Positions 39,786 through 49,441 of a DNA stretch of 49,441 nucleotides are shown piece by piece (the first letter of the stretch is position 1; every line of letters begins with the position of its first letter). Origin of the DNA: Methanobacteriota archaeon (GTDB lineage Archaea; Halobacteriota; Methanosarcinia; Methanosarcinales; Methanosarcinaceae); NCBI GenBank assembly GCA_030054735.1, contig JASGVX010000091.1:1-49441 (forward strand). The letters are read 5' to 3'. The notes under the pieces are model-generated. The model saw only the letters and a list, made by a program, of their open reading frames with translations, was not told the origin of the DNA and did not search any database. A program made the translations under genes and the position numbers.

Positions 39786-40100
39786 TTAGTCGTATTCTCT
39801 CCATGTAAACCCACACTTTGTACATTTGAAGAAGCGGGTCTCGGACTCGTCAGCAGACCTGAGCTGTCTGAGCCACCAGGTTGCAGTATTGTTCCCGCAC
39901 TCCGGGCATTTTGCATTCGTTGTTGGCAGGACTGAGGTCTGTTCTCCTTCAAGTACCACTACTTCGCGGTCATCAATTTTGGCTGTAGATACAAAATTTT
40001 TTGTGTCACTTTCAATCGGTATTATGTTTCCACACCTTTTGCAGTGGAAGTTACCATCTTTCGGAAACATCATACTTTTGCATTTAGTACAGAACTGCAT
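39786..40100 (-). CDS. Transcription factor S (TFS, RpoM/TFIIS-like)
   Basis: RNA polymerase transcript-cleavage factor. The 104-residue product has two zinc ribbons: N-terminal CTKCKSMMFPKDGNFHCKRCG (residues ~4-24) and C-terminal CPECGNNTATWWLRQLRSADESETRFFKCTKCG. The catalytic RSADE motif in the second ribbon is intact, so it should stimulate RNA cleavage and not be an inhibitory TFS paralogue. ATG 40100 overlaps the NUDIX gene's end by 17 bases; coupled expression is likely. Confidence 0.92.
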   Translation of the reverse strand: MQFCTKCKSMMFPKDGNFHCKRCGNIIPIESDTKNFVSTAKIDDREVVVLEGEQTSVLPTTNAKCPECGNNTATWWLRQLRSADESETRFFKCTKCGFTWREYD

Positions 40101-40494
40101 TAATATCACTTTTTGCGTCATTTATCATTTTATTATGGTCAAAAGCAAGATCAGGAACCAAATCCAGTTCAAAAAGTTCCACGGAAGCAGCATCAGAGCC
40201 TGATTTTAAATCTCCATATCCTTTCGCAAGGTAACACACTGATACTGTGTGTCTTCTTGGGTCGCGTTCAGGATTGGAATACACACCTATAAGTTTGAGG
40301 ATCTCTACAGAAAGGCCTGTTTCTTCAAAAGCTTCTCTGACAGCTGCTTTTTCTGTACTTTCCCCAATTTCGACGAAGCCGCCAGGAAGGGCAAGTTTTC
40401 CCTTATATGGTGGGTTTTTTCTCTTCACCAGAACAAGCTTGTTTTTAAAGAGAATTACAGTGTCAACGGTTAGGCTGGGGGTATTATGTTTCAT
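40084..40494 (-). CDS. NUDIX hydrolase, ADP-ribose pyrophosphatase-like
   Basis: A house-cleaning hydrolase for nucleoside diphosphate-X substrates. The 136-residue product carries the full Nudix box GGFVEIGESTEKAAVREAFEETGL (residues ~43-65), with RDPRRHTVSVCYLA downstream, typical of ADP-ribose/NADH-type members. ATG 40494 (MKHNTPSLTVD) is the preferred start; GTG 40509 is an in-frame alternative. It lies upstream of tfs with overlapping ends, both on the minus strand. Confidence 0.85.
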   Translation of the reverse strand: MKHNTPSLTVDTVILFKNKLVLVKRKNPPYKGKLALPGGFVEIGESTEKAAVREAFEETGLSVEILKLIGVYSNPERDPRRHTVSVCYLAKGYGDLKSGSDAASVELFELDLVPDLAFDHNKMINDAKSDINAVLY

Positions 40495-40599
40495 AAACTC
40501 GCTGTTCACTTTCCGTGAGCTCTTTTTTCTCTACAAATCTCCTTCCCGATTTACTTTTTCTAACATTTCGCCAGGTAAAATCACATAAATCACATATTA

Positions 40600-41379
40600 G
40601 TTTAGCCGTGTAAAATAATATATTAGTATTGTGCATATTGTAGAAATTCGTTATCATATTTCAATTATTCTTATCAACTCTTTTACTCTTCTCCATTCTG
40701 TTTTTAAGTTGGTCTCTGGTTCTCCGTGCTATAAGTCGAGTCTCCCTCAAGCAAAAAAACAAATTACGAACTAGTCTTTATTAAAGTTTTCTCTTTTTTC
40801 AGTGTTCCGTTTTGCTTTAGTTCCGAACGACTATTCCTAATCATTTCTGATTTTTTTCCCAATATTTCTGAAAAAACGATAGCATGAAAAATTGTGAATA
40901 ATTGAAGGATATCTGCGGAAAGCCGGATTAAAACTCTTGAATCTGAAAAATTTTTCTTCTAAAATATAAATGTCTTATATTCCGTTATTTTTCTATAATA
41001 GAAATTTGTCATTTATTACAGGCTAATTACAGACTATTATCATCAAATACCTGACTTTAAAAGTCCGGGCAGTATTTATTTATAATATTTTGAATTAGGT
41101 CAGATACCTGTAATCCATAATTTCAGGTAATTACCTGGATCTGTTCATGGGATGATAATCCATTCTAATTCGCTATATAAGAAAGTAAAATCCATAACCT
41201 TTGAGTCCCTTAATATTTAGATATGAAAAGTTTAAGTCCTTTGTAGAAGCTATATGGAAATCTATTAAATTATAGGGTATTTCGTGTTTTACTTACCCAA
41301 AACTTGCTCGAAATTTTCCATTACAAGGATAACACAAAATACCGAATGACTTTATCCCGGGCAAAAAGGTGCGTGAAAA
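40600..41379. other. AT-rich intergenic region upstream of artA
   Basis: About 780 bases with no gene. GGTATTTCGTGTT (41276-41288) faces AACACAAAATACC (41331-41343) with one mismatch, close to the artA start, and could be a regulator site or a hairpin in the leader. A strong ribosome-binding site AAAAGGTG precedes ATG 41380. Otherwise only AT-rich sequence is seen. Confidence 0.55.
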
Positions 41380-42249
41380 ATGATAGAAAGTGTGCTCTGG
41401 CTCGCAGTTGGATTAATGATTGCGTCATCCCTTATCCCCAAAACCTTAAAAGTTCGTAAACTTATAGGGGGAATAGGATGGGGTGTATTTTCAATACACT
41501 GGGGTTACCAGCCTTTTCATTACATTGAGATTCAGGATTATGCAAATGTGGCCCTTACATTCCTCGTTGCTCTTTTCTGCTTACTTGTGGCGTATATAAT
41601 GTTTCAGGAGTACAGAAAGGGCCCTTATATTCTAAATAACAATAGAAAAGTGATGCACTCGCCAGTCTCATCTCAGACTGAAGAAAATGCCCTTGACATA
41701 ACTTCAATGCTTACAAATGCAAGTTCGCTTGGAGCTCTTGTCTATTTCCCATTTGCAAATTTCTCTTCCCTGAATACCTGGATTATAGGAAGTGTCACAT
41801 CGCAGGTTACCTGGGTACTCCAGTACTTCGAAGTTCCGGCATATATGAAAGCCTGGAATATGATAACCCTTAACGGGTATACGGTTGAGATTATCCTTGC
41901 ATGTACCGCAATTGAAAGCATTGCTCTTTTTATGGGGCTGATAGGCTCTGTCAGAGCTCCCCTTAACCGTCTGGTTCCGGCATTCATTGTATCCGTGCCC
42001 GTGATCTATGTTCTTAACCTGATCAGGGACATCTTTGTGGTTGTAGCATATGGAGAACAGTGGTTTGGCGCTAACAGTTTTGTCATTGCACATAACTATA
42101 TTGCCAAAGCAGGGTCAGGAATAGCTCTATTCCTAATTTCATATGCTGTACTCAAGATTTTGCCTGAATTACTTGGAATGATTGATGGCCTATGGGTTCT
42201 ATTCTCCGAAGAATTGAAATATCTTCTGCATAGATTTGCTAGGGATTGA
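41380..42249 (+). CDS. artA: Archaeosortase A
   Basis: Membrane transpeptidase-like enzyme that processes PGF-CTERM surface proteins and attaches them to a lipid in the archaeal membrane. The 289-residue multi-helix protein has the invariant active-site cysteine in ILACTAIESIAL (C175), and RAPLNR. NLIRDIFVVV carries the conserved Arg (R216), and FVIAHNYIAK carries a conserved histidine (H238). Its stop overlaps the beginning of asd, and asd-pssA follow. In haloarchaea ArtA works together with the archaetidylethanolamine enzymes PssA and PssD, so this gene order matches the established pathway. Confidence 0.92.
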   Translation: MIESVLWLAVGLMIASSLIPKTLKVRKLIGGIGWGVFSIHWGYQPFHYIEIQDYANVALTFLVALFCLLVAYIMFQEYRKGPYILNNNRKVMHSPVSSQTEENALDITSMLTNASSLGALVYFPFANFSSLNTWIIGSVTSQVTWVLQYFEVPAYMKAWNMITLNGYTVEIILACTAIESIALFMGLIGSVRAPLNRLVPAFIVSVPVIYVLNLIRDIFVVVAYGEQWFGANSFVIAHNYIAKAGSGIALFLISYAVLKILPELLGMIDGLWVLFSEELKYLLHRFARD

Positions 42250-42254
42250 GATCA

Positions 42255-42881
42255 ATGATTGCAAAAGGCTCTGAAACCTGGCTTTTCACAGCTGCGGCTG
42301 TAACCTCCCTATTTGCAATTCTCTCCAAGGCAACAGATAGCCTACCACTCTTTAATCATATTGCTTATATGGGAATGGCATTAACTTTTTTTATGGCTCT
42401 CTTTTTCAGGGACCCCGAGAGAAAGATAGAGACATCTGACACTTACATGATATCCCCTGCTGATGGTACTATTATCGATATCAGAGACAGGAAAATTTGT
42501 ATTTTTATGTTTTTCCAGAACGTGCATGTTAATAGAGCTCCGATTTCAGGAGAAATTAGGGAGATTATATACAAAAAAGGTGGTTATCTCCCTGCTTATT
42601 GTAAGGACTCGGAGAGAAATGAAAGAAATGAATTTATTATCCATAGCAAATATGGGGATGTAAGAGTCACACAAATTGCAGGTACCATTGCCCGCAGGAT
42701 TGTCACATATTCAAGGGTGAATGATATTGTAGAACAGGGACAGCGTATTGGTATGATCCGTTTTGGATCAAGAGTTGATGTAACAATTCCCCATAGTTTT
42801 GACATTACAGTTGAAAAAGGGGAGCGGGTGCTTGCAGGCAAAACCATTATAGCAACAATAAAAAATGACAGGGACTTTTGA
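42255..42881 (+). CDS. asd: Archaetidylserine decarboxylase (PssD/Asd type)
   Basis: Pyruvoyl-dependent decarboxylase that turns archaetidylserine into archaetidylethanolamine. The 208-residue protein has N-terminal membrane segments (WLFTAAAVTSLFAIL, YMGMALTFFMALFFR), PADGTIIDI, FQNVHVNRAPISGEI, and the self-processing motif FGSRVDV. There the glycine-serine bond is cut and the serine becomes pyruvoyl. ATG 42255 gives the family start; a TTG at 42246 overlaps the artA stop. It is translationally close to artA and overlaps pssA. Confidence 0.9.
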   Translation: MIAKGSETWLFTAAAVTSLFAILSKATDSLPLFNHIAYMGMALTFFMALFFRDPERKIETSDTYMISPADGTIIDIRDRKICIFMFFQNVHVNRAPISGEIREIIYKKGGYLPAYCKDSERNERNEFIIHSKYGDVRVTQIAGTIARRIVTYSRVNDIVEQGQRIGMIRFGSRVDVTIPHSFDITVEKGERVLAGKTIIATIKNDRDF

Positions 42882-42883
42882 AT

Positions 42884-43627
42884 ATGAACGTATTCCAGAT
42901 GTTAAGACTCCCGGACCTGGTCTCCCTTTTGAACCTGATCTGTGGGATTGGTTCCATTGCAGTAGCTGCCCAAAGCGACTCTTTTGGATTTGCTTTGATC
43001 CTGCTCCTGCTTGCGGCAATTGCAGATGGGGCGGACGGATACATTGCCCGCAGATTCAAGGGGGGAGAACTCGGAGAGCAACTTGACTCCCTGGCAGATG
43101 CAGTTTCTTTTGGTGTTGCTCCTGCTCTCCTCATAATCCTTGAATTTGGAGCAAAAGAGCCTATTGTCGGAATATTTGCAGGCTTTTATGCTGTCTGCGG
43201 CGTTCTCAGGCTCGCCCGTTTTAATTCCACATTATCTATCCCGAAGACAGGGTTTGAAGGGCTTCCTATCACCGCAGGTTGTATAATGCTTGTTACGTAT
43301 CTTTTGCTCGGCAAAAGCTTTGTAGGGGTAGATGTTCTACTTGCTCTGACTCTTACTCTCTCAATCCTTATGGTGAGTACCATAAATTATCCGAAGATCA
43401 GAAACATCAGAATACTGGCTTTCGTAGCTTCTGTGTTCGGGATAACCATACTCCTTTACTTTATTGATGTGCAGTATATGAGGCTCTTTTCTTTCCTGCC
43501 CTTTATCCTGATGTTAAGCTACCTGTTTTCACCTTTCTTGAAGATTCCCCTGATCAGTATTGCTAACAGCAAAGATTACGGCAGCAAAAAAGGGCTAAAG
43601 GCCGAAGGAAGGAAAGGAAATCAGTAA
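42884..43627 (+). CDS. pssA: Archaetidylserine synthase (CDP-alcohol phosphatidyltransferase)
   Basis: Transfers L-serine to CDP-archaeol. The 247-residue membrane protein has the CDP-alcohol transferase signature: DGADGYIARR, then GELGEQLDSLAD with the metal-binding aspartates near residue 50-75. About seven membrane segments follow. ATG 42884 is favoured; TTG 42878 overlaps the asd stop. Together with asd it makes archaetidylethanolamine, and artA needs that lipid to finish surface proteins in haloarchaea. A hydrophilic lysine/glycine tail ends the protein. Confidence 0.9.
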   Translation: MNVFQMLRLPDLVSLLNLICGIGSIAVAAQSDSFGFALILLLLAAIADGADGYIARRFKGGELGEQLDSLADAVSFGVAPALLIILEFGAKEPIVGIFAGFYAVCGVLRLARFNSTLSIPKTGFEGLPITAGCIMLVTYLLLGKSFVGVDVLLALTLTLSILMVSTINYPKIRNIRILAFVASVFGITILLYFIDVQYMRLFSFLPFILMLSYLFSPFLKIPLISIANSKDYGSKKGLKAEGRKGNQ

Positions 43628-43706
43628 AAAAGGAAATCAGTAAAATTACTTCAGGATTATCTGATTTCAGCATACTGGCGCATCGATTTGGCAAGGAGAG
43701 GATTAT

Positions 43707-44066
43707 TTGACTAAAAATATAACAGATAGGGATAACGCACTTTTTGAAGCAGGAATAAAACTGGGAGCCCTTTATCATCAATTTACGGGCTCTCCAGTAA
43801 ACCTGAAAACAGCTTCAAGCCTTGAACAGGCTATCCAGGAAAGCATTTCAGTTCAGCCCTTTGTGGAAAATATTTCTGTGAAAATCGACCGGAACCTCTT
43901 AAAAAATAAGTTAAACAGCGAGTTCGGATACACAGAACTTCAGGGGCCCATGCTTGAAGTTAAAATCACTGTAAAATACGGCTCTTCGTGGGTGAAGGTC
44001 GCAATGGAGTATGACTCTGAACTGAATTATCCATTGATGAAAATTCAAAATATAGAAAATAAGTAG
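43707..44066 (+). CDS. mptD: Dihydroneopterin aldolase, archaeal MptD type
   Basis: Cleaves 7,8-dihydroneopterin to 6-hydroxymethyl-dihydropterin in methanopterin synthesis. The 119-residue product matches the DUF381/MptD family: RDNALFEAGIKLGALYHQFTGSPV near the N-terminus with the conserved Glu, LEQAIQESISVQPFVENISVKID, and GYTELQGPMLEVKITVKYG. TTG 43707 is the start, following AAGGAGAGG by four bases; the first ATG would lose the core. It follows pssA after 79 bases and may be transcribed separately. Confidence 0.85.
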   Translation: MTKNITDRDNALFEAGIKLGALYHQFTGSPVNLKTASSLEQAIQESISVQPFVENISVKIDRNLLKNKLNSEFGYTELQGPMLEVKITVKYGSSWVKVAMEYDSELNYPLMKIQNIENK

Positions 44067-44085
44067 GCCGGGTAATATTCAGAAT

Positions 44086-44310
44086 ATGGGGTTTTACCAT
44101 TTTCCATCAAATTCCTTATTTTTCAATAATATTTGGCTATAATATTTGGCATGAAAGTTCCTTCAATTACTTGAGGTTTTGCCATTTTCCATTAAATTCC
44201 TTATTTTTCAATTATATTTACTTATAATATTTATTTTGTAAAAAAATTTATTTAAAATAATTTAAAACCAATTTAATATGGTATTATATACTTAATTATA
44301 ATTAGGGTCT
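44086..44310 (+). repeat. Direct repeat R, left copies (one partial, one full) with hairpin fragment
   Basis: Partial copy at 44086-44147 (GGGGTTTTACCATTTTCC...) is followed by GGCATGAAAGTTCCTTC at 44148-44172, a fragment of the dispersed hairpin repeat. A full copy (GAGGTTTTGCCATTTTCC to ...TTAATTATAATTAGGGTC) runs 44173-44310. A third copy at 46880-47015 lies on the other side of the ArsR/ABC cassette in the same direction. All are AT-rich and non-coding. Confidence 0.8.
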
Positions 44311-44719
44311 TTTTTTCTCTTATAATATGAAAAAAACTCTATTTAAGTTTTTAACACATAATTAATATCTATTATATTATACGATTTATAGAAAGAGATT
44401 ATATTAAATGCTAATTTTTAAAGTATATATTATATTAATTAGATCCTCATTACGGGATCCCGTATTCATCGGCATTTAATTGTGAAAATTTAAAGGCACA
44501 GAATATAATTTTATGGCAAGATAAGCAATTTTAGGCAATTTTTTTACATTTAAAGTATTATTGTCAATTTGGGGAAAACCTCAGATAAGTTCAGATTTGA
44601 AATGTTTATATTCTCATTGAGGAATGGCTAAGAAGAAAGTTAAGGGTCAGGACAGCAGTCTGGTGTCTGAGATAATGGTGGTAGACTAAAAGTGGGGGAA
44701 AGATTTATAGCGAACTATT
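44311..44719. other. AT-rich gap upstream of the ArsR gene
   Basis: No intact gene. TACGGGATCCCGTA at 44451-44464 is a perfect 14-base palindrome. A 21-codon ORF begins at ATG 44625 after GAGGA (MAKKKVKGQDSSLV, then SEIMVVD) but ends at once; it could be a truncated transposase N-terminus or noise. Confidence 0.5.
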
Positions 44720-44745
44720 TTTAATTAGGTATATAGCTAATTAAA
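44720..44745 (+). promoter_or_regulatory. Likely ArsR operator overlapping the TATA box
   Basis: TTTAATTAG (44720-44728) and CTAATTAAA (44737-44745) are perfect inverted repeats of nine bases, eight apart, around GTATATAG. The spacer holds a TATA-like core, 19 bases ahead of the arsR start codon. Self-repression by the adjacent ArsR is expected. Confidence 0.65.
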
Positions 44746-44762
44746 TTTCAAGGGAGACTGTT

Positions 44763-45149
44763 ATGGACAAAACAAAAGTATTAAAAGCTATTGCTGATGA
44801 GTCACGCATGAGCATTTTGAAATTACTGTTAAAACACAATTACTGTGTACGTGCATTGGCAAATGAATTGGCATTGACAGAGGCAACTGTATCACAACAT
44901 CTAAAGGTATTACGTGAGGCAGGTTTACTTGTCGGAGAAAAACGTGGATATTTTATGCACTATACTGTAGAAAGAGAAGTATTGCACGAATTGGCTAAAA
45001 AGATTGATGCTCTGGCAGCTATAGAGCAGGAAGCTTGTCATCCAGAAAAACGCGATGACTGTCCTGCTAATGAAGAAAAAGAATGTCACAAAAAAGGTAA
45101 ATGCAGCGTTGAAGTTAAGGAATTCTGCCACGGCAAAATGAAAGAATAA
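44763..45149 (+). CDS. ArsR-family regulator with cysteine-rich C-terminal tail
   Basis: A 128-residue regulator. Residues 1-75 form the winged helix (KAIADESRMSILKLLLK, ALTEATVSQHLKVLREAGLLVG), close to ArsR/SmtB. The tail from residue ~90 is Cys/His-rich (EACHPEKRDDCPANE, ECHKKGKC, EFCHGK), suggesting metal or thiol binding, unlike the N-terminal sites of classical ArsR. It is cotranscribed with an ABC-2 exporter and has an inverted-repeat operator. Codon use and AT-richness look more like Bacillota than the surrounding genes, indicating transfer. Confidence 0.82.
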   Translation: MDKTKVLKAIADESRMSILKLLLKHNYCVRALANELALTEATVSQHLKVLREAGLLVGEKRGYFMHYTVEREVLHELAKKIDALAAIEQEACHPEKRDDCPANEEKECHKKGKCSVEVKEFCHGKMKE

Positions 45150-45169
45150 TAAAGATAAGGATTGTGGAA

Positions 45170-46132
45170 ATGCTCAGTGTTGCAAACTTAAAAAAAACAT
45201 ATGGTGATTTTACTGCTGTAAACAGTATTTCTTTTGAAGTTCAAAAAGGGGAGATATTCGGTTTTCTAGGACCGAACGGAGCAGGAAAAACATCTACGAT
45301 AAATATGATGATAGGTCTATCCAGACCGACATCCGGAGAAGTTATAATTGACGGCATAGATGTAAGAAAACAAACAAAAAAAGCACAATCTATTATGGGT
45401 ATTGTTGCTGATGAAAGCAATCTTTACAATGAGATGAACGGTTTTGAAAACTTGTGTTTTTGTGCCGCTTTATATGGTATGGAAAAAAGTGAAAGAGAAG
45501 CAAAAGCCCGAGATCTTTTAGAAGAGTTCAGATTGAAAGATGCCGGTAAACGACCTTTTAAAGCTTATTCTAAAGGAATGAAACGCAAACTTACAATTGC
45601 CGCAGCACTGATACATTCGCCACAAATTTTATTTTTAGATGAGCCGACAACTGGTATTGATGTTGAGAGTTCAAGGCAAATTCGAAAAATGATAAAGGCT
45701 TTGAAAGAGCAAGGAACAACAGTTTTTCTCACCACCCACTATATAGAAGAAGCCGAGCGTATATGTGACCGTATCGCTTTTATCGCAAAGGGACAAATAG
45801 TTGCTTCAGGAACTGTTCTTGAATTGATGGATAGTGTTTCTCATGGTCATTCTATTCGCTTTGTTACAAGTAAATTTGCTGAAAATCTGACTGATGAACT
45901 TCAAAGTAATTTTAAGGGAAGCAAGGTCACTATTCAATCTGACAATACTTTGATTATGGAATCGGAAGAACGAATTTCGTTACTCCCGGTTATGAATTTT
46001 CTATATGATAAAGGAATTGATGTATACGAGGCAAAAGAGCTGCGTCCTTCTTTAGAAGATGTATTCGTTAAGCTGACTGGCATAGAATCTTCTGTACTTA
46101 CAAGAGACGAGAAAAAAGGAGGTCGCAAATGA
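45170..46132 (+). CDS. ABC-2 type transporter ATP-binding protein
   Basis: Drives export by the permease encoded next. The 320-residue product has Walker A GPNGAGKTSTI near residue 38, the Q-loop, signature YSKGMKRKL near 136, Walker B ILFLDEPTTGID near 158 and the H-loop TTHYIEEAERI. A C-terminal extension (NFKGSKVTIQSDNTL, EERISLLPVMNFLYDKGID) is typical of drug/lantibiotic-type ABC-2 ATPases. ATG 45170 is preferred, with AAGGA about eight bases upstream; GTG 45164 is possible. It overlaps the permease gene by four bases (ATGA). Confidence 0.88.
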   Translation: MLSVANLKKTYGDFTAVNSISFEVQKGEIFGFLGPNGAGKTSTINMMIGLSRPTSGEVIIDGIDVRKQTKKAQSIMGIVADESNLYNEMNGFENLCFCAALYGMEKSEREAKARDLLEEFRLKDAGKRPFKAYSKGMKRKLTIAAALIHSPQILFLDEPTTGIDVESSRQIRKMIKALKEQGTTVFLTTHYIEEAERICDRIAFIAKGQIVASGTVLELMDSVSHGHSIRFVTSKFAENLTDELQSNFKGSKVTIQSDNTLIMESEERISLLPVMNFLYDKGIDVYEAKELRPSLEDVFVKLTGIESSVLTRDEKKGGRK

Positions 46133-46860
46133 AGAGTCGTATCGCTTTTTGGAATATTTTAAAAAAAGATATTAAAAATTATTATCTTAAACCGCCAAAT
46201 ATCAGCTGGGGTATCATTTTCCCCCTATCATGGACGCTAATGCAACTTATTCGTTCTCCGGGAGAAAATATTTTGGAACTACTACCGGGTCTGATGGCTA
46301 TGAGTGTCTTATTCGGGACGACATCAATGCTTTCCGTCACCATCACTTTTGAGCGTAGCGGTAGATCTTTTGAACGTCTACTGCTGGCACCTATAAGCTT
46401 AAATGTTATGGTTTTGGCAAAAATAGCGGGAACTGTTCTATTTGGGATGTTTAATGCCTTTGTTCCGATAATTTTTGCAAGTTTTTCCACAGATTTGAAA
46501 GGAGTCAACTTCGGAATAATATTACCGGCTGTTTTTATGATTGCTGTAAGTTCAGCATTAATGGGGCTAATGATTGCAGTATCTGCCAACCAGGTATTTG
46601 AGGCACAAACTTTTTCTAATTTCTTCCGCTTTCCGATGCTGTTTCTTTGCGGATTATTCATACCTATTTCAGATTTGCCGTTATTTTTACGTCCCATTTC
46701 CTACTTTTTACCACTCACTTACGGAGCTGATATGCTTAAAAGTGCCGTTACAGGAGCAAATACTCTTTCTCCGGTGTTGTCTTTCGGTATCTTGCTGTTT
46801 TTTTCGGTAACATTATTTCTAATTAGTAGACACAATATAAACCGAAAATGGATTTTGTAA
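46129..46860 (+). CDS. ABC-2 type permease
   Basis: Membrane component of the exporter, 243 residues with six hydrophobic segments: an N-terminal one (NISWGIIFPLSWTLMQ), three in the middle including VMVLAKIAGTVLFGMFNAF and FGIILPAVFMIAVSSALMG, a segment with MLFLCGLFIPISDLPLFL, and the last near the C-terminus. This is the NodJ/DrrB-like ABC-2 layout. The substrate is not known, but the neighbouring ArsR-type regulator suggests a toxic compound or metal. The start codon overlaps the ATPase stop (ATGA), so translation is coupled. Confidence 0.88.
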   Translation: MKSRIAFWNILKKDIKNYYLKPPNISWGIIFPLSWTLMQLIRSPGENILELLPGLMAMSVLFGTTSMLSVTITFERSGRSFERLLLAPISLNVMVLAKIAGTVLFGMFNAFVPIIFASFSTDLKGVNFGIILPAVFMIAVSSALMGLMIAVSANQVFEAQTFSNFFRFPMLFLCGLFIPISDLPLFLRPISYFLPLTYGADMLKSAVTGANTLSPVLSFGILLFFSVTLFLISRHNINRKWIL

Positions 46861-46879
46861 AAAATAAATTTATATATAT

Positions 46880-47015
46880 GAGGTTTTACTATTTTCCATT
46901 AAATTCCTTATTTTTCAATAATATTTGGTTATAACATTTATTTTGTAAAAAATCTATTTAAATAAATTTAAAATCAATTTAATATGATATTATATCCTTA
47001 ATTATAATTAAAGTC
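46880..47015 (+). repeat. Direct repeat R, right copy
   Basis: GAGGTTTTACTATTTTCCATT to ...CTTAATTATAATTAAAGTC, starting 20 bases after the permease stop. It aligns with 44173-44310 over its entire 136 bases with scattered changes. Non-coding. Confidence 0.85.
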
Positions 47016-47137
47016 ATTTTTACTCTCCTAATATAGAAAAAATGTAGCTCATGCTATTCTTTCGTCTGAGATATTAGATCTGGGTGATGTGCTGACTGAA
47101 ATTTTTGGAAAAAATGATTGTCTGATTCTTCCGGACC

Positions 47138-48271
47138 TCAATCAACTCGATTTTCCCCTTCATATTCTTTCCTCACTTTGACCGGTACCCTGTTAAAAGG
47201 GCATCCAAAATAGAGACAGTGAGAACACTCATACCGCCATATTGTCAGCAAAAAAATCAATATGGAAACCAGATAAGACCCCAGCAGGAACGGTACTTTC
47301 AAAAGCCAGGGAAATGGGAATAGAATTATGGTTATGAACCCAAGAGTAGTAATAATGAGATCGAGTTTGCTAGGAGGACAGTGTATTGGTTTAAAATTCC
47401 TTGGCCAGCCCCAGTTCATCATACAGCTCAAACACTTTTCACCCCTGACAAAATAAGGGCAGTGAGTACAGAAAAAGCGCTGTTCCAGAATACCAAAATG
47501 GAAGATAACTATGAAAATGTATGCAAGAAGCCACCCTGTTGAACTGATGCCGATTGCAAGCCCCGCAGAAAATAGGACAGTCAGCGTTAGAAAGTTCCAG
47601 TAAAGGAAGTCTTTAAATTCGTGCTCCATTTTAAGGGAGGCACATTTACCTGAACATTCTGCCTGAAGTTCTTTTTCTGAAAATTCAATATTCTCTGAAA
47701 GGGCACCCCTTTTCTCAAATTCTTTTTCAACGTCTGCAGGTACACGGTTCACAGGACATTCGAAGTTTATGCAGCGAACGCACTCGTACCTGCGGGCTGT
47801 AAGAAAGAACAGCGTCCATGAGACAATATAGGCTCCCAGAAGCAAAGGGTCCCTGATAAGCCAGTATACCGGGAAAAGAAAAATGAGCAGGGCTCCGAGA
47901 AGCGCCACGGTTTTTTCAAAAAAGCTGTGAAGGCCTGGGCGGGCTTTGAAAATCTTTGGCAGTCCTGGAAGCATCCTGCATTTTACGCATCCCTTGCTCA
48001 AGATGTAGTAAGGACAGTGAGTACAGACAAATCGTAATTCGAGAACCAGAAAGAAAAAGAGAGCTATTCCGATGTAAACTGCAACCAATTTAAGGGAATC
48101 CCTGGCAATTGCTATGGAGCCGACGAGGAAGGGGATCACATTTAAAAAGTTCCAGTAAAGGCGGTCTTTTGCTGAATATTCTGTTTTGAGGGAAAGCGGA
48201 ATACCTGGGGAGAACATGGAAGAAGTTTTGGAAAGGAAGAGTAAATAAGTTTGTGTTTCTCTCTCAAGCAT
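47138..48271 (-). CDS. Membrane protein with two tandem seven-cysteine modules
   Basis: A 377-residue membrane protein of unknown function with clear internal duplication. Each half has two hydrophobic pairs and the same cysteine pattern. Half 1: CTHCPYYILSKGCVKC (C83, C86, C95, C98), then RRYECVRCINFECPVNRVP (C164, C167, C172). Half 2: CTHCPYFVRGEKCLSC (C268, C271, C280, C283), then WRYECSHCLYFGCPFNRVP (C349, C352, C357). The linker has a CSGKC as well. The spacing suggests zinc ribbons or an Fe-S or redox site near the membrane. ATG 48271 lacks a ribosome-binding site; a later Met (48217) is possible. I know no named family. Confidence 0.65.
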   Translation of the reverse strand: MLERETQTYLLFLSKTSSMFSPGIPLSLKTEYSAKDRLYWNFLNVIPFLVGSIAIARDSLKLVAVYIGIALFFFLVLELRFVCTHCPYYILSKGCVKCRMLPGLPKIFKARPGLHSFFEKTVALLGALLIFLFPVYWLIRDPLLLGAYIVSWTLFFLTARRYECVRCINFECPVNRVPADVEKEFEKRGALSENIEFSEKELQAECSGKCASLKMEHEFKDFLYWNFLTLTVLFSAGLAIGISSTGWLLAYIFIVIFHFGILEQRFFCTHCPYFVRGEKCLSCMMNWGWPRNFKPIHCPPSKLDLIITTLGFITIILFPFPWLLKVPFLLGSYLVSILIFLLTIWRYECSHCLYFGCPFNRVPVKVRKEYEGENRVD

Positions 48272-48276
48272 CTATT

Positions 48277-48560
48277 TTACATTTTCAGCATCCATTTCCA
48301 GAGTGGGATGTATGTGATCCTATTTTCTGTCTTTTCGCTGTCATTCTTGAGAGCACTGACCTCTCTTTCAGCGATACTGTCGCTGTACGTGACGTTGATT
48401 GCAGTTAGAGAATTGTCCTTTTCCTTCACCACGAAATCAACTTCGCCCCCGTTTTTCCAGTAATAGACCTCTTTTTCTCGGCGCATAAGTTCGAGGAAGA
48501 CCAGGTTTTCGGAGAATGGCCTTATGGAGGGGAGAAAGCTTATCTTTTTACAAGGCAGAA
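48277..48560 (-). pseudogene. C-terminal fragment of an AAA-type ATPase (DUF4143-like)
   Basis: Minus strand: SFLPSIRPFSENLVFLELMR, then REKEVYYWKNGGEVDFVVKE and NVTYSDSIAEREVSALKND. This matches the C-terminal nuclease-like part (ENLVFLEL, YYWKxxGEVDFV) of archaeal and bacterial AAA ATPases with DUF4143. The N-terminal ATPase domain is missing and no start codon precedes the fragment; the nearest ATG (48486) lies inside it. It is therefore debris. It lies upstream of the cysteine-rich membrane gene on the same strand. Confidence 0.6.
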
Positions 48561-48662
48561 CGAGCCCCTAAAACTAAAAAAAGAAATAACTATATAACAT
48601 AATATAATACAAAATATGCAAGTTTAGTAGTTATTATATAATTAGTTGTATCTTATACCTTA

Positions 48663-48931
48663 CATTCGGCAGGTCGACATTAAAAATCAGAACATTTTTC
48701 CTGATATCGTTTTATGGTATCTCCTGGGTAGAAATGAGATTGAAAGTTGGTTAACATGTGGCTCAACTATCACCACATATATAAATATTGGATCTTTTTT
48801 TCATAAAAGTTTAGTGTGATATATTATTAATTGATCATATGTAAACCTAAAAGTTACGTACGAATACTATGTATTATTTCAAAATCGGCATCAACAAAAA
48901 TTGTGAAATTGAAATGTCGACCTGCCGAATG
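48663..48931 (+). mobile_element. Miniature inverted-repeat element X, intact copy
   Basis: CATTCGGCAGGTCGACATT at the left end is perfectly reverse-complementary to AATGTCGACCTGCCGAATG at the right end (19 bases). The 269-bp body has no ORF. TATCTTATACC is present at 48649-48659 and 48932-48942, three bases from the left end and directly at the right end, so it is probably an 11-base target duplication. The copy at 16605 is colinear apart from its insertion. Confidence 0.88.
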
Positions 48932-48993
48932 TATCTTATACCATTCATTGTTTTTTCGAAAGATTATTAAATAGGATAGTCTATTAGCTTTGA

Positions 48994-49315
48994 GTGTTAA
49001 ATGGTTATGATATTAATCGAAAAGACAATTTTTATAAGATGATGAATGTGGAAAAAGATTATTTGGAGGACTTAAAGTCCAGATTAATCACTGAAGAAAG
49101 TAACGATAATGACTATAGGTCCGAATACCTTCATGATAGAGATAGGATACTTTATTCAAGGGCTTTCAGAAGATTAGCAGGAAAAACACAGGTTGTAACT
49201 GTTTCAGGATTAAAAACAAGCGACCATCTAAGAAGCCGACTTACTCACTCTCTAGAAGTTATGCAAATAGCAACTTCCATAGGAAACTATCTAAAAAACA
49301 AAGAAGATGTAGTTA
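48994..49315 (+). pseudogene. dNTP triphosphohydrolase (dgt-like), truncated by IS insertion
   Basis: N-terminal part of an HD-domain dGTPase: RSEYLHDRDRILYSRAFRRLAG, then KTQVV, then DHLRSRLTHSLEVMQIATSIG. The first histidine of the HD metal site (LTHSLEV) is present, but the paired HD and downstream ligands are lost because at 49316 the sequence passes into GTAACTATTCAG, the end of an IS66-type element. The frame adds only NYSAY after that. The start may be GTG 48994 or ATG 49039. Element X lies 60 bases upstream. The rest of the gene, if any, lies beyond the window. Confidence 0.8.
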
Positions 49316-49441
49316 GTAACTATTCAGCCTATTGATAAAAAAATATTTTTTGAGCAAAATTTTTCCATTCTCAGTATAATAGAGGCGCTCCTTTGAGCGC
49401 CGCAAGAATAGCTTCTATAACATTGCCCCCATTCTTTATAC
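49316..49441 (-). mobile_element. IS66-type element, 3' end, inserted in the dgt-like gene
   Basis: The boundary at 49316 starts GTAACTATTCAGCCTAT, the same terminus as at 1086 and 28784. On the minus strand at 49371-49441 a frame reads NGGNVIEAILAALKGAPLLY and stops, as expected for a transposase C-terminus 55 bases from the element end. TGTAGTTA (49308-49315) would be the eight-base target duplication. The family call rests on the GTAA end and its similarity to the left-edge element; the transposase fragment is too short to classify. Confidence 0.6.

Follow-up and report, generated by a model that had tools for sequence, protein, structure and literature searches.

A three-gene operon from Clostridia was probably transferred recently into a Methanosarcina genome, where it would have been trimmed and relocated by way of IS and MITE copies and would now be read from an archaeal promoter under its retained ArsR repressor. 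The locus lies near the end of a 49,441-nt stretch of DNA (the window) from a Methanosarcina-type genome of 2.88 Mb in 149 contigs (99.4% complete, contamination estimate 0.04). The genus was named in an earlier reading of the sequence and agrees with the genes present. This genome was compared with 30 other Methanosarcina genomes (31 with the source genome) and with a wider set of 295 genomes of the phylum. The stretch 44065-47107 is a mosaic composed of a MITE fragment, a fragment of a small element, a complete MITE, the end of an ISH3 element, the clostridial operon, a truncated MITE and an IS110 fragment. The MITE is referred to here as MITE E, and its copies correspond to the repeat R of a previous, sequence-only reading. 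The features are listed below.

43707-44066, + strand: dihydroneopterin aldolase family gene (Pfam DHNA), native left flank; 96% nucleotide identity to the sister genome G005 until 44044
44087-44147, + strand: 5' 61-bp fragment of MITE E, 89% identical
44148-44171, no strand assigned: hairpin-like fragment with a weak, short match to a second small dispersed element (TTTAGCATGAAAGTGCTTTCA; GCATGAAAGTGCTTTCA type)
44172-44583, + strand: complete MITE E, 412 bp, bounded by 12-bp terminal inverted repeats (left R and a further 273 bp); ends TGAGGTTTTGCC...GGGAAAACCTCA
44584-44717, + strand: 3' end of an ISH3-family IS (IS positions 1136-1270 of 1273, the tip minus its last 3 nt), by similarity to an intact copy
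44702-44712, + strand: TATA-like GATTTATAGCG in the IS end, candidate archaeal promoter; match at chance level
44721-44744, no strand assigned: downstream operator O2 (TTAATTAG-gtatatag-CTAATTAA), which was retained; first bacterial sequence past the junction
44763-45149, + strand: ArsR/SmtB-family repressor with Cys28 and 5 Cys in the C-terminal tail; profile match
45164-46132, + strand: ABC transporter ATPase, DrrA subfamily (TIGR01188, barely above the cut-off)
46129-46860, + strand: ABC-2 type permease, by profile and tree
46861-46877, + strand: final bacterial DNA, 17 bp beyond the stop codon, by DNA homology to bacterial loci
46879-47042, + strand: right R, the first 164 bp of MITE E, truncated at the 3' side; 88% identical to the left copy
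47043-47117, + strand: IS110-family transposase gene fragment, by sequence match
47138-48271, - strand: 377-aa Cys-containing membrane protein, native right flank; linked to other genes in relatives

Clostridial origin of the operon

Three intact genes on the + strand (44763-46860) form the operon and encode an ArsR regulator, an ABC ATPase and an ABC-2 permease. The sequence-only reading had described an ArsR with a Cys-rich tail, an operator and an ABC-2 exporter, and all of these are present with intact ORFs. Based on nucleotide comparison, Bacillota-like DNA spans 44720-46877, being 83-88% identical to sequences in Bacillota MAGs, the majority of them from anaerobic digesters, with a best match of 88.5% over 2158 bp. 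The operon proteins share 86-92% amino acid identity with those of the four closest Bacillota-type MAGs. Across the 31 Methanosarcina genomes searched, the permease that comes closest after that of the window has 33-36% identity, and proteins matching at 1e-40 or better are found in only three other genomes of the 295 of the phylum, at 40-45% identity. In a permease tree of 44 rows the window sequence falls within a seven-row bacterial clade (support 100/94) on an end branch of 0.05. The bacterial-looking codon use claimed earlier is evident in the GC3 of the operon genes (0.26-0.35 versus 0.44 in native genes) and in the share of AGG among Arg codons (3% versus 37%). The codon log-odds of the operon genes lie 4.7-7.9 sd under those of 27 long ORFs of the window. 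The dN/dS of the operon ORFs against relatives (0.06-0.13) is dominated by divergence among bacteria and is silent on post-transfer selection.

Since the phylogeny is not vertical, the permease being nested inside Bacillota, and the codon use is foreign, the earlier description of the operon as acquired is right; vertical descent within Methanosarcina, which would have spoken against it, is not what the tree gives. Nearest relatives in the donor group, nothing comparable in sister genomes and foreign codons are all found here, as expected for a recent transfer from Bacteria. That 44720-46877 is clostridial DNA, recently acquired by one Methanosarcina lineage, is strongly supported by these comparisons. 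A plasmid vehicle was considered and rejected: the only match among 72,556 plasmid records had 63% identity and lay on a non-mobilizable replicon.

An assembly or binning chimera that joined clostridial and archaeal DNA at repeats is most improbable. Several of the 149 contigs end in IS or MITE copies and the habitat of the donor lineage commonly holds Methanosarcina, which would favor such an artifact, but the junctions have no long identical stretch in common with the fetched clostridial loci, the repeats at this locus are identical to other fetched copies over stretches of no more than 50 bp, and both flanks are native in a genome with a contamination estimate as low as that given above.

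The bacterial relatives of the operon have varied neighbors, as a flanking homologue is common to just 43 of 903 pairs of bacterial operon loci, and related operons also occur in MAGs labelled Chloroflexota, Atribacterota, Spirochaetota and others. The varied neighbors and the occurrence across several phyla suggest that the operon moves often among bacteria. By sequence, the ArsR-DrrA-ABC2 operon looks like a frequently transferred bacterial module and a candidate exporter. The bacterial operons collected (L061-L140), many of them from anaerobic-digester MAGs, have a double operator over the promoter and a Cys-rich ArsR tail. An anaerobic-digester Bacillota operon (e.g. L061, JAAYRL010000006.1) resembles the archaeal copy in gene order, protein identity (88-90%), position of O2 and Cys tail. 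In the census of transfers into Methanosarcina by Garushyants et al. (2015), Firmicutes and Proteobacteria were the main donors, complete operons were infrequent and regulators were seldom transferred with their targets (PMC4455057). The window operon shares with those transfers a Firmicutes/Clostridia donor and a transporter function; unlike the census pattern, it arrived whole with its regulator and operator (PMC4455057).

Mobile-element relics at a genome rearrangement breakpoint

The direct repeats reported around the operon are present and longer than claimed, 412 bp on the left (44172-44583) and 164 bp on the right (46879-47042). The second partial R on the left was likewise borne out as the 5' 61 bp of the element at 44087-44147 (89%). 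The adjoining hairpin fragment was upheld in part: 44148-44171 resembles a second small dispersed element, the match being weak and short. Copies of MITE E begin with TGAGGTTTTGCC and finish with GGCAAAACCTCA, which gives the 12-bp terminal inverted repeats. The element is non-coding, intergenic, about 412 bp long and multi-copy, and it is like known MITEs in being short, non-coding and TIR-bearing. No target-site duplication was obvious by eye. A search for an autonomous partner found none, and one candidate end pair examined in G014 showed no clear transposon. R gave 39 matches in the source genome, representing dozens of copies or fragments, and several further Methanosarcina genomes, including ones without the operon, contain MITE E with 68-79% identity; it had no match in the sister genome G005 (79% complete). 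Among 22 copies with context, both the orientation and the distance to genes are variable, and a tie of R to gene ends or strand was rejected for want of any consistent orientation or distance. R as a known RNA was also set aside, with no notable Rfam match in 40000-49441. A search of the available literature found no paper describing MITE E.

Other small elements were observed. An element of about 300 bp at 48647-48947, with 35-nt inverted ends (ATTCGGCAGGTCGACATT), is repeated in many Methanosarcina genomes and constitutes a second MITE family. A third small dispersed element (AACGCATATGAAATTCTTC...GCACTTTCATGCTAA) is seen at L163:1550-1650, L040:2178-2230 and L220 (G000:C29 near 18200); in one case it lies within a copy of ISH3, and MITE E copies are often close by.

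The segment 44584-44717 belongs to the ISH3 family: it shares the terminal sequence of an intact homologue whose transposase fits the ISH3 profile. This reference copy, in G008, is 1273 bp long, with a transposase above the NF033541 cut-off and ends CAGTACTTCGC and CAGTAGTTCGC. AAATT is read on both sides of it, a possible 5-bp target duplication. ISH3-family elements have terminal repeats; of such an element the window keeps a 134-bp end only. The ISH3 end gave 20 matches in the source genome. A 196-bp internally deleted derivative with both ends present (L165:1498-1693, G000:C131) constitutes an ISH3-derived MITE.

The two flanks of the mosaic are unlinked in relatives. G005 has counterparts of both flanks, the left one extending to 44044 (96%) and the right one beginning at 47108 (89%), but these lie on separate contigs beside different neighbors. 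The aldolase gene is followed by hisC in all relatives where it was fetched, with one 179-aa gene between them in G005. In the source genome this linkage is broken; hisC adjoins an Elp3-like gene on contig C29, with a 3' remnant of MITE E at the junction of the two. On the other side, the 377-aa gene adjoins a substrate-binding protein gene in G003, G005, G014 and G022, and the region of this gene in G005, the ancestral right neighbor, had no match in the source genome. The 377-aa protein consists of two similar Cys-containing membrane halves and is conserved in Methanosarcina, with no match in Pfam or NCBIfam. The mosaic therefore sits at a genome rearrangement breakpoint. The pattern fits a MITE/IS-mediated rearrangement, but given how numerous the MITE copies are, a single remnant at the partner junction is suggestive and not proof. 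The genome-wide dispersal of R, the two IS fragments and the synteny break all go beyond what had been noticed from the sequence alone.

The sequence-only reading had proposed a cassette moved as a unit or trapped between repeats. Mobilization of the operon by its flanking direct repeats, either as a composite MITE transposon or by recombination between R copies, is very unlikely, even though the operon has a MITE copy on either side, both oriented alike, and the right-hand copy sets in at the final base of the bacterial DNA. MITE E is scattered throughout the genome and the genus. On the left, the ISH3 end separates the MITE from the operon cargo, and the right-hand MITE is without its 3' half and the terminal repeat there. 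The pair therefore does not form a composite transposon, in which complete copies would stand directly at both cargo ends. No target duplication was found for the MITE pair, and in bacterial relatives the operon ends are free of such repeats. The earlier reading had suggested looking for a single R copy in genomes without the operon. The nearest relative has neither R nor adjacent flanks, so there is no such empty site to find, and no relative offered a clean one. The cassette carried by R repeats was rejected on these grounds; R is a dispersed MITE, present in Methanosarcina without the operon, and its distribution is unrelated to operon presence or absence, which the earlier reading itself had named as counting against a cassette.

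Both ends of the foreign DNA abut relics of native mobile elements, the ISH3 end on the left and the MITE terminal repeat on the right. For the preferred reading, a recent transfer followed by trimming and relocation, we infer that IS and MITE copies beside the foreign DNA recombined with copies elsewhere, which would have removed the rest of the foreign DNA and relocated the operon. Relics of local MITEs and ISs and foreign DNA thus meet at one breakpoint.

The junction of the IS end and the bacterial operator

How bacterial genes are expressed after entry into archaea, whose promoters differ, is an open question. The present locus offers a small case in which regulatory rewiring following a transfer can be put to the test: a repressor, its operator and the target operon came together, relatives of the donor with about 90% identity are at hand, and comparison reveals the promoter that was lost. 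In about 20 of 22 bacterial homologues inspected, an upstream palindrome of the TTAATTAG-N8-CTAATTAA type is located at about -81 with the -35 TTGAC inside it, followed by a TATAAT-like -10 box and then by a second palindrome at about -41. The archaeal copy has the second palindrome only, at -42, with nothing bacterial upstream; the ISH3 end is joined there, the last three IS bases (CTG) being absent at 44717 and the operator coming next. The left junction lies past the bacterial -10 box but ahead of the downstream operator. This position means that the sigma-factor promoter and the upstream operator O1 are gone and O2 is kept in place. Compared with the Bacillota operon, which carries two operators and a sigma-type promoter (TTGAC...TATAAT), the archaeal copy is without the promoter and O1. 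The ribosome-binding region is retained. On sequence comparison, the exact junction of an archaeal IS end with a retained bacterial operator is a new point.

The IS end in the window reads GATTTATAGCG where other IS copies read GATTTTAGCG or AATTTTAGCG, and this TATA-like stretch is placed about 25 bp ahead of the center of O2. For another methanogenic archaeon, Methanolobus psychrophilus, the distance between predicted BRE/TATA elements and the start site is about 19-22 nt (PMC5378194). The best BRE/TATA score upstream of the operator is 8, which was reached in 92% of randomized sequences, and the TATA/BRE match in the IS end does not rise above the background of shuffled sequence. We hypothesize that GATTTATAGCG could act as the TATA box of the operon. 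The spacer of the O2 operator also reads TATATA.

A natural promoter swap, in which the IS end replaced the sigma promoter so that a bacterial repressor and operator now control the archaeal transcription machinery, is a tentative proposal to which we give somewhat less than an even chance. Alternatively, the operon may be a dead passenger, captured without a working promoter and silent, with intact frames that reflect only its recent arrival. The missing bacterial promoter, the lack of a convincing archaeal signal and codons without amelioration fit this alternative, which we still consider unlikely. All three frames are intact, the operator and the ribosome-binding region were retained, and transferred genes in Methanosarcina are often expressed, 46% of them differentially (PMC4455057). 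In the preferred reading of an operon under archaeal transcription, initiation would occur from an archaeal promoter within the IS/MITE sequence, and ArsR on the retained O2 would block it by occupying the start site or its vicinity.

Repressor and exporter

The ATPase scored 313.2 against the TIGR01188 cut-off of 312.45, which places it marginally in the DrrA subfamily. The permease scored 66 against the DrrB (TIGR01247) cut-off of 223 and falls outside the DrrB subfamily. The window exporter shares with DrrAB-type ABC exporters (TIGR01188/TIGR01247) a DrrA-class ATPase followed by a single ABC-2 permease, and differs from them in a permease far under the DrrB cut-off and in its ArsR control. 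The marginal DrrA match and the permease under the DrrB profile make it unsafe to name an exported drug. The operon is, by sequence, a putative regulated pump of the drug or metal type.

The classical motif of ArsR/SmtB is CVCDL. The window ArsR passes the HTH_metalloreg subfamily profile (76 versus a cut-off of 55), which supports membership in the ArsR/SmtB family, and like other metalloregulators of the family it has a palindromic operator beside the start. In contrast to the classical motif it reads CVRAL, without the second Cys, and has five Cys in the tail instead. ArsR would probably leave the operator once its Cys residues are oxidized or take up a thiophilic metal or metalloid, and the loss of repression would switch on ATP-driven export of a toxic compound. 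Cys28 in the HTH domain and the five tail Cys are kept in nearly all close bacterial homologues.
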